Shown: piece after piece, positions 2,900-35,500 of the stretch | Position numbering within the stretch: the first letter of the stretch is position 1 | Layout of the letters: every line of letters starts with the position of its first letter | Virus record (IMG/VR): IMGVR_UViG_3300031669_000093 | Span: 1-39,477 of that record | Source: a virus | Length of the DNA stretch: 39,477 nt | Direction: 5' to 3' (one strand) | The notes under the pieces: generated by a model | The model's database searches: none | The model's input: the letters and a program-made list of their open reading frames with translations, nothing else | Told to the model about the DNA's origin: nothing | Position numbers and translations under genes: made by a program

Positions 2900-3610
2900 A
2901 TGAAAAAATATAAAAACAAAGAATGGTTAAATCAAAAGTACACTATTGAAAAATTATCTACCTATAGAATAGCACAATTATGTAATGTCAATAATGTAAC
3001 AATTTTCCAGTGGTTAAAAAGATTTAATATTAAGAGAAGGGACAAAGGAAAAGCTGTAGCTTTATATTATTCAAAGGGAATTGAACAAATATTTGAATAT
3101 CGAAATTACAAATGGTTAAACCAGAAGTATGTTTTAGAAAAATATTCGATACCTGACATAGCTAAACTGTGTAACATTGGAACAACAACAATAAAAACAT
3201 GGCTTGAAAAACTCCGAATAAAAATTAGGACAAAAAGAGAAGGAATGAAAATATATTATTCAAGGCATCAAGGTATTAGGAGTGGCAACACTAACGCTAA
3301 CTGGAAGGGTGGGGCGTATAAAAGTGGGGGCTATCTCATTACTCACCAACCTAATCACCCACATGCAACCAAGGATGGGTATGTCCCTAAACATAGATTG
3401 GTAATGGAAAAGAAGCTAAGTAGATATTTAGAACCTGGTGAGATTGTTCATCATATAGATGGAGATAAATTAAATAATGATGAATTAAATTTATTTTTAA
3501 CCGATAAGACCGAGCACAGAAAAGCCCACTTCTCTTTAATGAAAGTAGGTTATGAACTATGTAAGCAAGGAATTATAAAGTTTAAAAATGGGGAATATTT
3601 TCCTAGCTAA
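2900..3610 (+). CDS. HNH homing-type endonuclease with two helix-turn-helix modules
   Basis: 236 aa. Two related DNA-binding modules lie in tandem at residues ~8-47 (EWLNQKY...IAQLCNVNNVTIFQWLKRFNIKRR) and ~73-110 (KWLNQKY...IAKLCNIGTTTIKTWLEKLRIKIR). A linker with 'NTNANWKGGAYKSGG' leads to an HNH domain: 'HPHATKDGYVPKHRLVMEKKLSRYL' then 'GEIVHHIDGDKLNNDELNL', where the HH-D-N series is the expected metal/catalytic core. Such enzymes nick or cut DNA and often spread as free-standing homing elements next to terminase genes, as here. A shorter paralogue with one module lies at 38212. The gene ends tail-to-tail with the terminase gene, overlapping by 4 bases, with no terminator between them. 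Confidence 0.85.
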   Translation: MKKYKNKEWLNQKYTIEKLSTYRIAQLCNVNNVTIFQWLKRFNIKRRDKGKAVALYYSKGIEQIFEYRNYKWLNQKYVLEKYSIPDIAKLCNIGTTTIKTWLEKLRIKIRTKREGMKIYYSRHQGIRSGNTNANWKGGAYKSGGYLITHQPNHPHATKDGYVPKHRLVMEKKLSRYLEPGEIVHHIDGDKLNNDELNLFLTDKTEHRKAHFSLMKVGYELCKQGIIKFKNGEYFPS

Positions 3611-24347: not shown

Positions 24348-24548
24348 TTATTTCACTTTGTCAACGTCAGTAAGTCGTGCAAACTTAGGCTTCATACCAA
24401 CTCGGTCCTTGAATTTTCTCTCGGAATATCTCAGCTTATCTAACTGTCCATCATTCATGGTGCTACCCCACTCTTTACGTAGATTCATCTCTTGTTCGGA
24501 GCGTGTTTTTCCAAGTGAGGATTTACCCTTAATAATGATATTAGCCAT
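24348..24548 (-). CDS. hypothetical charged protein, 66 aa
   Basis: Highly charged, Lys/Arg/Glu-rich (KSSLGKTRSEQEMNLRKEW; later ERKFKDRVGMKPKFARLTDVD). It shares its first base with the stop of the preceding gene and is followed by the hairpin at 24311. Homologues may exist among capsid-cluster proteins of other phages, but none is recognised. Confidence 0.5.
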   Translation of the reverse strand: MANIIIKGKSSLGKTRSEQEMNLRKEWGSTMNDGQLDKLRYSERKFKDRVGMKPKFARLTDVDKVK

Positions 24549-25516
24549 TAGGTTCCAGGATTTGCGCCACTAGCATCTTCTATTGTTTTAAGTAAGAATT
24601 GAACTCCACCGTCAGCACTATACAATTCATCGTCTGTGTCATTGGTTCCCCATGTAACATCGGCACTTTGAAGGCGAATATCTGTAACCAATCCAGTATT
24701 GCTTCCACCAAACCAGAAATAATGATTATCAGCAGGTACTAAACCCATTGTAAGATTCTGAAATAACATATCCTTCTGTGCTCCAGCTACGCAATAAATA
24801 TACCTAAGTGCCTGATTATCTGCAAACATCTCGCCAAAATGAGAATTGATTACCTGATGTCCACCAGTAGGAAGTGTATTACTCGTTGACCACCATCCGC
24901 TATTTGCACTGCCACTAGCTTTGAACGTACAATTATCCGTACAACTATCGTATCCACCAGATACATTTAACTGTCCGTCTCTGAAGAAACAGTTATAAAC
25001 TGAAAAGCCAACAGAACCAGCCGTACTTGCATAAGCAGCAGCGTACATATGAACTGCACCGTAACTAGCCCTAATATAGTCCTTAGCTGAAAAGCCAAGA
25101 TTCTCTAAGGTTAGTCCAGGAGCATAGTTCAAAAGAACGTATCCAGTGTCTCCATCATCAGCACCATGCTGAAACCACACGCCCATGTATGGATTTCTGT
25201 GGTGTGCTGTCACGCCAATAATAGATAGGTTTACCGAAGCATAAGGAATGGTAACCTGGTCAGCCTCTTCAATGTAAGAATAGTCAGAGGCATCGGTTTC
25301 TGCACCCTTCGCTCTCACGTAAATCACATCATCTGTACCAGCGTGTGTTACTGCGTGAGTGAGGGTTTTAAATGCCCTCTGCGGAGCTGTCCCATCAAAG
25401 GCATCGCTTCCGTTATCATTATCAACAAAGTAATGTGTAGCCCAAGGGCTAGAAAATCTTGCGCCACCAACAGGGCTTCCACCCCACTGGTAAACGCCAT
25501 CTGGAAAAGTAGTCAT
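24548..25516 (-). CDS. beta-helix virion protein (third of its kind)
   Basis: 322 aa. ATG at 25516 has a GAGGAG seven bases upstream; the in-frame GTG at 25537 would place that binding site inside the gene. 'THYFVDNDNGSDAFDGTAPQRAFKTLTHAV' opens a DUF1565-like parallel beta-helix. Then follow coils such as 'PYMGVWFQHG', 'LTLENLGFSAKDYIRA' and 'VYNCFFRDGQLNVSGGYDSCTDNCTFKA'. Directly after the capsid gene and the HNH insertion, it may form head fibres or an appendage. Its binding site complements a segment in front of the HNH gene (see findings). Confidence 0.65.
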   Translation of the reverse strand: MTTFPDGVYQWGGSPVGGARFSSPWATHYFVDNDNGSDAFDGTAPQRAFKTLTHAVTHAGTDDVIYVRAKGAETDASDYSYIEEADQVTIPYASVNLSIIGVTAHHRNPYMGVWFQHGADDGDTGYVLLNYAPGLTLENLGFSAKDYIRASYGAVHMYAAAYASTAGSVGFSVYNCFFRDGQLNVSGGYDSCTDNCTFKASGSANSGWWSTSNTLPTGGHQVINSHFGEMFADNQALRYIYCVAGAQKDMLFQNLTMGLVPADNHYFWFGGSNTGLVTDIRLQSADVTWGTNDTDDELYSADGGVQFLLKTIEDASGANPGT

Positions 25517-25566
25517 TTTTTTTCTCCTCGTCGCCACCCTTTTCGGTACAGTCGCTGCGGTAACGG

Positions 25567-26123
25567 CCTGACGACACTTCTGAATTCTAATTAATTTATC
25601 CGCATTGAATTAATTAGTGTCTAAAATTCCCACTAGAAATCCATGAATATCAGAATGACAGTCAATGCAAACTGCAATACCATTTTCAATATCAAATCTT
25701 AATTCTTCATTCTTCCAAAAAGATTCTAAATGGTGAGTATGCAATAAATCTTTCCGTCCACATAACACACACATATAATTATCTTTTTTCAAAACAGCAT
25801 TTCTCCAGTGTTCATATTCACTCGAATTTCGCAGATGCTGTATTTTAGTTGTAATGCCACCCTTCCAATTAGGGTTTCTAGTACCTAAATTACAATATCG
25901 CAAGCGAGTCTTTGATTCAGATGTATGTTTACGATTTTTGTTTCCGAGCATTTTTTCACTTCTACTTTTGTTTGTATATAATGTACCACAAAGTTTTGAA
26001 CAAAATTTCCGATTATTCCTTACTTCATAAGGATATGCCAAAAACTTTTTATCGCATCGCACACATTCTAATTGAATCATTTCATAACTCGCTACAGCCG
26101 CAAGAGCACGACCTGACGACACT
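25567..26123. repeat. 12-bp direct repeats flanking the HNH gene
   Basis: CCTGACGACACT occurs at 25567-25578 and at 26112-26123, just outside the two ends of the HNH coding sequence and 545 bp apart. The identity is perfect, and looser similarity continues on one side. This is the pattern left when an element duplicates a short target or inserts by homology. Confidence 0.7.
25610..26080 (-). CDS. HNH endonuclease with N-terminal zinc finger
   Basis: 156 aa from the ATG of MIQLECVRCDKKF; an in-frame GTG at 26122 lies within the direct repeat and would add 14 unrelated residues. Four parts are visible. CxxC...CxxxC (ECVRCDKKF...KFCSKLC) forms a zinc finger. A NUMOD-type basic patch follows (RKHTSESKTRLR), then 'NPNWKGG'. 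The HNH domain has Cys pairs that bind a structural zinc (YMCVLCGRKD...CIDCHSDIHG) and the catalytic 'HTHHLESF'. It lies between the capsid gene and the next virion gene in the same orientation, like a free-standing homing endonuclease. Unrelated in N-terminal layout to the two HTH-HNH proteins in this window. Confidence 0.8.
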   Translation of the reverse strand: MIQLECVRCDKKFLAYPYEVRNNRKFCSKLCGTLYTNKSRSEKMLGNKNRKHTSESKTRLRYCNLGTRNPNWKGGITTKIQHLRNSSEYEHWRNAVLKKDNYMCVLCGRKDLLHTHHLESFWKNEELRFDIENGIAVCIDCHSDIHGFLVGILDTN

Positions 26124-26133
26124 GTTATGACGA

Positions 26134-26162
26134 GGAGAGCTTGTTCCCTTTTGAAGCTCTCC
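26134..26162 (-). promoter_or_regulatory. perfect 9-bp hairpin after the capsid gene
   Basis: On the minus strand GGAGAGCTT and AAGCTCTCC pair perfectly around an 11-base loop. It stands 55 bases after the capsid stop. No T-run follows, so it is more likely an RNA-stability or processing element than a terminator. Its descending arm overlaps the CTCCTCGTC segment that complements the next virion gene's binding site. Confidence 0.6.
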
Positions 26163-26217
26163 CCGCCAGTTATTCAAGGTAACCGTCCTATTCCCTTTCT
26201 TTGTTTATTTACACTAC

Positions 26218-27174
26218 TTATGCTGAACCGCAAAAATACATTCTAGTATCGCCATATCCGAATGTGTAATACTGTAAACTCAACACCAAAGTATCAAGCG
26301 ACGTATCAGGTGCATTCTTCGTAACAACAATCGGTTTCATAGAAGTCAAAACATTGATGTCAAACATGTCATCATTCTTTGCTTCCATAAACCAAGCTGT
26401 CGTACTTGTAAGTCTAGGATACTCTAAAAACGTCAACTTCATATTCTTTAGTTCGTTAATTGTATTACTCTGCTCAAATGGAATATGCTCACTACCGAAA
26501 ATCTCTTTTACGGTATAATAAAGAGTAGGTTCAAACGCTAAAACAGTAGGAATTGCACCGCAATACATTCCCTTGTCATCTGTCATTGTCGCAAAGTAGT
26601 ATCTTGCACTTTTGATGCTAGAAACAGCTAAAGCCTGATTTAAGTAGTTGTCATAAGTGTAATCAGTATCAGCTTTGTAGTGTGTGTCTTCAGCTAAATC
26701 AGTACCAGTTGCATCAAACCCTCCCCCAACCGTTCCTGCTCCAGTAGTAAGAGCAGCAGTCGCAGTAGGAGCATTAAACAATCTCGCAACATCAACATCC
26801 TTCGATTCTACCATAGTCTTTGATAAACTAGCCGTAAGCCGTTTCACCATACCAATCTTGTTGAAGTATTTCATCTTGTGAGTGATTCTGAAGCCTGCCC
26901 CTGTTCCGCCCTGTGTGTACCGCTTATCTTCACCGAGAGTCGGACTCAAGATTGGAATAGGTTCGCCTTCATTCACTGTCTGTGCCGCACCAAGTCCAGC
27001 ATACTGTAAGTCATCCACGTGGAGTTCACTCGTAGTCCTGTCATTCATTACGTTAGGGTAGAGTGAAATTGCTGTTCTCTGTGTAGCGTCAAAAATTTTA
27101 CTGACACCATCCTTTAAGATATACTTATAGGTACTGGTATCAAAATCCGTGGTTACTATTGTTGTATTTGCCAT
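26218..27174 (-). CDS. major capsid protein, HK97-fold
   Basis: 318 aa, within the usual range. A long N-terminal region (STYKYILKDGVSKIFDATQRT) is followed by 'FRITHKMKYFNKIGMVKRLTASLSKTMVESKDVDVARLFNA', a typical spine-helix region, and a beta-rich C-terminus (FLEYPRLTSTTAWFM; TSMKPIVVTKNAP). It has a strong RBS (AAGGAGG) and stands after the decoration-like and scaffold-like genes, as in many phages. HK97 fold is inferred from pattern, length and place. Confidence 0.8.
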   Translation of the reverse strand: MANTTIVTTDFDTSTYKYILKDGVSKIFDATQRTAISLYPNVMNDRTTSELHVDDLQYAGLGAAQTVNEGEPIPILSPTLGEDKRYTQGGTGAGFRITHKMKYFNKIGMVKRLTASLSKTMVESKDVDVARLFNAPTATAALTTGAGTVGGGFDATGTDLAEDTHYKADTDYTYDNYLNQALAVSSIKSARYYFATMTDDKGMYCGAIPTVLAFEPTLYYTVKEIFGSEHIPFEQSNTINELKNMKLTFLEYPRLTSTTAWFMEAKNDDMFDINVLTSMKPIVVTKNAPDTSLDTLVLSLQYYTFGYGDTRMYFCGSA

Positions 27175-35210: not shown

Positions 35211-35282
35211 ATGAAAATTCAGTTTATCCCTGGACAGAAATTATTTAGAATTAAAAACACTAAAAAAGAGGTGAAAGAATGA
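35211..35282 (+). CDS. possible 23-aa leader peptide
   Basis: ATG at 35211, some 9 bases past the -10 box, reads MKIQFIPGQKLFRIKNTKKE and VKE, and ends at TGA overlapping the next ATG (ATGA). No binding site precedes it. Basic composition and coupling make it a plausible leader peptide, but it may be only a leader sequence. Confidence 0.35.
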   Translation: MKIQFIPGQKLFRIKNTKKEVKE

Positions 35283-35500
35283 AGTATAATCCAGATTTAA
35301 TTAACAAGTATCCTGGTATGTGGAAAAACCGTAAAACATTTAAAAGATATTGTGCATTAACTAAATTGCATCTTGGTCTTAGTGGTGAACCACATTACTA
35401 TTATTGCACAATCTGCAACAAACATTTTAAAACCTCTGTTGGTGCTGATAATCATCTACGAGTAAAACATGAAAAGGAAATATTAAACACTATTAAATAA
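35279..35500 (+). CDS. single C2H2 zinc-finger protein, 73 aa
   Basis: A classic C2H2 finger: CTICNKHFKTSVGADNHLRVKH, i.e. Cys-x2-Cys-x12-His-x4-His, at residues ~43-64, with the conserved Phe of the finger core. An N-terminal basic and aromatic part (KYPGMWKNRKTFKRY) precedes it. It may bind DNA or a protein. First well-supported gene of the rightward cluster, behind the duplicated GAGGTGAAAGA site. Confidence 0.8.
   Translation: MKYNPDLINKYPGMWKNRKTFKRYCALTKLHLGLSGEPHYYYCTICNKHFKTSVGADNHLRVKHEKEILNTIK

Follow-up and report, generated by a model that had tools for sequence, protein, structure and literature searches.

A putative free-standing HNH homing gene at a recurrent insertion site behind the capsid gene of a virus, with HNH genes of related phages enclosed in predicted long RNA hairpins

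Between the genes for the major capsid protein and a beta-helix protein, the window (the whole 39,477-base virus record analysed here) contains a stretch of ~700 nt that is an insertion with a free-standing HNH gene, a putative homing endonuclease. The reading that we favor, and regard as probable, is that such a gene sits at a recurrent site behind the capsid gene, and that in sister phages it is closed inside a hairpin. The HNH frame of two of these lineages is predicted to lie within the loop of the hairpin at this place, so that the hairpin could still form in the mRNA. Family members without the HNH gene possess either a bare spacer of 11–13 nt with the ribosome binding site (RBS) of the next gene or a GC-rich hairpin. 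In the window, a 15-bp capsid hairpin is intact upstream, and the HNH gene is located behind it, between two diverged copies of a short repeat. The presence of HNH genes in the loop of a long RNA hairpin in related phages is unusual and testable.

All three genes are encoded on the minus strand, in the order capsid (27174-26218), HNH (26080-25610), and beta-helix gene (25516-24548). The segment contains the following features:

26218..27174, minus strand: major capsid protein gene, 318 aa (Pfam Phage_capsid_4, 6.8e-9; capsid of G008/L118 54% identical)
26128..26168, minus strand: 15-bp hairpin 3' of the capsid gene, with an 11-nt loop and without a trailing T run (-24.6 kcal/mol, pair probabilities 0.99-1.0)
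26129..26138, minus strand: upstream complementary arm TCTCCTCGTC, within the 3' arm of the capsid hairpin
26108..26123, minus strand: direct repeat copy A, with similarity extending to ~26088
25610..26080, minus strand: HNH endonuclease gene, 156 aa from the ATG at 26080 (PF01844, 2.8e-5; GC 0.316, GC3 0.22)
25587..25617, minus strand: 10-bp hairpin, AT-rich, at the stop codon of the HNH gene
25563..25578, minus strand: direct repeat copy B, with similarity extending to ~25542
25523..25532, minus strand: downstream arm GACGAGGAGA, containing the Shine-Dalgarno sequence of the beta-helix gene
24548..25516, minus strand: 322-aa beta-helix-like (tail-fibre-like) gene (phrog_9851, 6.1e-4)

An earlier note on this DNA had placed an HNH gene between the two complementary arms, and the Pfam match bears this out. 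The protein exceeds the cutoff of PF01844 and matches 12 PHROG families, nine of which are named HNH endonuclease. The gene has its own start and stop codons; an alternative start (GTG 26122), used in the ORF listing, would extend the product to 170 aa, and it is this longer frame that matches phrog_1271 (7.7e-14). With a GC content of 0.316 and a GC3 of 0.22, the gene is AT-rich compared to its neighbours at 0.40 and 0.44. The window encodes a second HNH gene (2900-3610) with HNH_3 and helix-turn-helix regions, whose end overlaps the end of a convergent terminase gene. This gene lacks a flanking stem, as p<0.01 was not reached in the helix test.

Searches with single proteins (capsid, portal, and a terminase fragment) retrieved no near relatives. 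These were found via pair alignments instead: an alignment of the window terminase with that of the Methanomicrobiales-associated vir526 led to terminases that are ~50% identical, a capsid 54% identical to that of the window was then located in G008, a record behind these terminases, and an alignment of both capsids yielded 16 loci, 11 of them at 43-53% identity. In five of these relatives, which have no HNH gene, the capsid and beta-helix genes are adjacent, which supports the earlier view of the HNH gene as an insert between the two. The spacers at these junctions measure 11 nt each in L108, L109, and L111, 13 nt in L118/G008, and 95 nt, with a GC-rich hairpin, in L110. The positional homologue of the beta-helix gene in G008, located 3' of the capsid gene, is 32% identical over the first 100 aa. 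The exact empty site of the window was not found in any near relative, the best capsid identity being 54%. Among the 13 HNH-free loci of the 16, a hairpin is predicted in six spacers (L110, L115, L116, L117, L120, and L121; MFE -19.6 to -34.4 kcal/mol), and no hairpin worth naming was seen in the other seven (L108, L109, L111, L118, L119, L122, and L123).

Post-capsid HNH genes occur in three of the 11 loci (L112, L113, and L114). Their domain types differ, with NUMOD3 and HNH_3 in L112/L113 and HNH PF01844 in L114 and the window; the L114 protein is 33% identical to that of the window. In the capsid tree, L112/L113 group (100/100) with the HNH-free L115-L117 on very short branches. The intergenic regions within this capsid group differ, with a short hairpin in L115/L117 and an HNH gene in L112/L113. 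Because the capsids are so close, the HNH gene was gained or lost recently in L112/L113 relative to L115-L117. Taken over the family, the site just 3' of the capsid gene is a recurrent HNH insertion site that has received at least two domain types on three capsid branches.

The HNH genes of the sister phages are enclosed by long stems. The L112 frame lies between GGCAGACGCATCGCTTTATGGACTC, ahead of its start codon, and GAGTTTATAAGGCGGTGCGTCTGCC, immediately behind its stop codon, and these two sequences form 25 uninterrupted pairs (duplex -47.2 kcal/mol, z -8.0). The stem of L113 comprises 28 pairs and includes the start codon (z -7.1), and in L114 (z -6.4) the arms cover ~33 positions, the stop codon among them; they contain one bulge and differ at three sites, two of which still pair as G.U. 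The helix z values for L112, L113, and L114 are 13.5, 13.7, and 6.2, respectively. Since 97% of the insert positions agree between L112 and L113 (676/695), these two count once and two independent long-stem cases remain. Both the L112 and the L114 stem are present in the minimum-energy and in the centroid fold of the whole segment, and both precede a T-rich run followed by the RBS of the next gene. At the DNA level the arms differ at eight positions (four in L112, one more in L113, and three in L114), and seven of these eight differences are T/C or G/A exchanges that are G.U-compatible in the mRNA. Because they leave G.U pairs, they suggest pairing in the transcript rather than terminal repeats of the DNA. 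No alignment was obtained between the hairpin sequences of L112, L115, and L117, so that the gene may have entered an existing loop or may have arrived together with its stem.

The flanks of the window HNH gene can pair as well, with a duplex energy of -49.7 kcal/mol (p 0.026 when the intergenic stretch is taken whole), and 0 of 1000 were as good as a 60-nt arm that was chosen afterwards. However, the expected number of pairs across the HNH gene is only 6.4 in the window, as opposed to 26.2 in L112 and 25.3 in L114, because the best arm is taken up by the capsid hairpin. The window would show a weak version of the enclosing stem at best. The notion of an HNH gene within a stem applies to the sisters L112/L113 and L114, but not in the form originally claimed, since their stems differ and miss the RBS of the next gene: the L112/L114 stems end before that RBS without overlap, whereas the downstream arm of the window is the RBS itself.

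Flanking stems are no general attribute of HNH genes. Across the window gene and 64 others, drawn from 80 HNH loci, the mean z was 0.05, and two of the 65 reached z>=3, compared to 6 of 300 control genes. None of 11 HNH genes from named phages reached p<0.01 for a flanking stem (the fused methyltransferase locus L129 was dropped). The stem is associated with the post-capsid place of the window's phage family, not with HNH genes at large. Flanking direct repeats were rejected as a general mark of this HNH family, as repeats of at least 12 nt occurred in 2 of 70 loci, both A/T-rich (73 of the 80 loci were given after near-duplicates had been left out, and three had short flanks). The sole Rfam matches near HNH genes were group I introns, at L016 and L017; no other intron or family was detected there. 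Two further loci in this survey deserve mention. In ctDrO704 (L124, MW202512.1, 2476-2998) a homing endonuclease gene follows 3' of a 305-aa head-region gene and overlaps the next gene by 4 nt; no stem flanks it. In ctLwi270 (L083, MW202554.1, 9804-12341) the terminase large subunit is annotated as two pieces around a small gene, and the first piece carries extra sequence that, by its motif, may be an intein with a homing domain.

The complementary arms and repeats described for the window are real. The 9-mers CTCCTCGTC (26137-26129) and GACGAGGAG (25532-25524) are perfect complements at the positions and on the strand reported, each occurs once on the minus strand, and the match actually extends to 10 nt (TCTCCTCGTC/GACGAGGAGA). 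CTCCTCGTC does not come just after the capsid hairpin, as had been stated; it forms the base of the hairpin's 3' arm. The two 15-nt arms of this hairpin (26154-26168 and 26128-26142) are 87% complementary and form 15 pairs counting G.U. The repeats that bound the HNH gene (25563-25578 and 26108-26123) are 16 nt long with 15 identical positions. Each copy is followed after 10-11 nt by a second block of similar sequence. This similarity, picked after being seen, was equalled by 6 of 5000 shuffles and, among 20,000 random stretches, by 32 and 43. A search of viral contigs with the pattern of repeat plus second block gave 0 matches. Neither the arms nor the repeat, each taken alone, is extraordinary: a 10-nt upstream complement of the start region exists at 2 of 52 gene starts in the window, the best helix flanking the window HNH gene has p = 0.04, and an exact repeat of at least 12 nt flanks 3 of 49 window genes.

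Other repeats and shared segments were noted in the window. Positions 24431-25426 cover the beta-helix gene together with part of the small gene that follows; their DNA is 76.6% identical to L103/L104 (83% and 60% for the proteins), where a different gene precedes them. The remaining 31 window proteins that were tested gave no match in L103, and in L104 only a weak terminase match was found. Judged from these comparisons, the segment appears to be a recently exchanged cassette. Part of the window repeat, AGTGTCGTCA (25578-25569), resembles AGTGTCGCCA in L104 (1528-1537), located in the spacer before the related beta-helix gene, and this match might mark the cassette boundary; the alignment score of the L104 spacer against that of the window has p = 0.064. 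A 22-nt exact direct repeat, TTAGAATTAAAAACACTAAAAA, flanks a small plus-strand gene at ~35279-35500 and is possibly an early promoter or leader repeat.

Several other explanations of the capsid–beta-helix region were weighed. A plain HNH insertion, which landed in the spacer by chance and left both the window arms and even the L112/L114 stems without function, is the strongest of them but still rather unlikely. It would account for the marginal helix of the window arms (p 0.04) and for the lack of flanking stems both at HNH genes generally (65 rows) and, at p<0.01, at all 11 of the named-phage genes. However, chance falls far short of producing uninterrupted stems of 25-28 bp and a nearly complete one of 33 bp, which abut or overlap the HNH start and stop codons in two lineages, and seven of the eight arm mismatches in the DNA still allow G.U pairing in the mRNA.

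Improbable, too, is a transposon-like element that is moved as a unit by the HNH protein, with the inverted arms of L112/L114 as its terminal repeats and the direct repeats of the window as target duplications. The 16-nt direct repeat around the window HNH gene and the long inverted arms at L112 and L114 are features one would expect of such an element, but the arm sequences of L112 and L114 are unrelated, nearly all mismatches preserve RNA pairing, and flanking direct repeats do not characterize HNH loci (2 of 70 with at least 12 nt, both A/T-rich).

The earlier note had proposed a translational switch, in which the capsid hairpin competes with a stem between the upstream arm and the beta-helix RBS so that only one of them can form, and in which a stem that once hid this RBS, with a 60-nt loop, was weakened by the HNH insert. 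The perfect 10-nt complement does include the RBS, and the stem reaches -27.4 kcal/mol if the flanks are joined and the 5' arm of the capsid hairpin is removed. Once this 5' arm is included, however, the probability of the stem is 0.000, both in the native stretch of 801 nt and in the 256-nt stretch minus the HNH segment, and the capsid hairpin forms with 0.99-1.0 in both. The beta-helix RBS is unpaired to a much alike degree with and without the HNH segment (0.40 and 0.35), and the joined segment loses ~10 kcal/mol relative to the fold with the capsid hairpin if the arm-RBS stem is imposed on it (-29.3 vs -39.6). The arms of the capsid hairpin are just 11 nt apart and are transcribed before the downstream arm. 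Because this hairpin has so short a loop, forms first, and outcompetes the arm-RBS stem, a switch would need an agent that opens it; a terminating ribosome presumably would not, as the capsid stop codon is located ~50 nt upstream. The relatives speak against the switch as well. In none of the five HNH-free relatives with both genes does the junction contain the arms or the repeat, the closest matches having at least two mismatches to the upstream arm, at least three to the downstream arm, and at least five to the repeat core; this is the outcome that the earlier note itself had named as a refutation. Because these relatives lack arms and repeat and mostly have spacers of 11-13 nt, the segment is best seen as an HNH-bearing insertion, and the arms are apparently not an interrupted ancestral stem. 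They are better read as a fortuitous match between the CTCC-containing arm of the hairpin and the beta-helix Shine-Dalgarno sequence, or at most as a weak form or remnant of an enclosing stem. The switch is thus largely refuted and highly unlikely, and the result for the window is mainly corrective: an attractive switch drawn from complementary letters fails against relatives and folding. Finally, an undetected self-splicing intron, whose excision would remove the whole insert and join the capsid and beta-helix spacers, is hardly conceivable, as some HNH homologues do adjoin group I introns (L016, L017) but no match, including to the Intron_gpI model, was obtained at permissive thresholds in the window (25400-26400, Rfam scan at E up to 10) or in L110, L112, L113, L114, and L117.

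The preferred explanation, in which a free-standing homing gene occupies a recurrent site behind the capsid gene, resembles known systems in several respects. Phages commonly carry HEGs in the neighbourhood of their capsid genes (PMC10448857). Like the free-standing HNH homing genes of other phages (T4 mob genes; ICP1-type HEGs), the window gene is a small HNH frame between essential genes; unlike these, the L112/L113/L114 frame is enclosed by a long stem, and homing is putative here. PMC2988022 and PMC3014915 describe RNA hairpins that hide the translation start of T4-type homing genes (I-TevI, segB, and Aeh1 mobE), and the stems of the sister phages, too, would be expected to hide the endonuclease start. 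However, those hairpins are located at the gene start, whereas the L112/L114 arms lie at both gene ends, ~600 nt apart. Homing genes also reside in peripheral loops of group I introns, where the frame lies in a loop and the fold of the host RNA is kept (PMC2988022); here, no intron was detected and the host structure is an intergenic hairpin. The same source places T4 segD beside gene 23 (major capsid), amid terminators (PMC2988022), and thus offers a homing gene next to a capsid gene, but segD is of the GIY-YIG type and antisense, whereas the window and L112-L114 genes are of the HNH type and in sense orientation. The searched open-access literature, as far as its accessible text extends, yielded no description of a free-standing homing gene placed within an intergenic hairpin loop.

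In the sister phages the pairing extends into the HNH start codon or directly up to it, and would thereby keep HNH translation low. A more far-reaching possibility, which we put forward only tentatively, is that the post-capsid hairpin acts as a landing pad. HNH genes would settle in its loop, and the hairpin, now with a loop of ~600 nt, would still serve as a terminator or mRNA 3' end and silence its passenger by closing over the HNH start codon. The window would then represent this arrangement in degenerate or displaced form, with nothing but bulged arms left of the enclosing pairing. Comparable stems close large loops in pre-rRNA processing. If the explanation is true, homing genes outside introns may be tolerated by sitting in the loop of an RNA hairpin, with the hairpin kept working and the gene silenced. 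The post-capsid space would be a place of repeated insertion in this family, and the near-identical capsid backgrounds with and without the HNH gene (L112/L113 vs L115-L117) make this idea directly testable.
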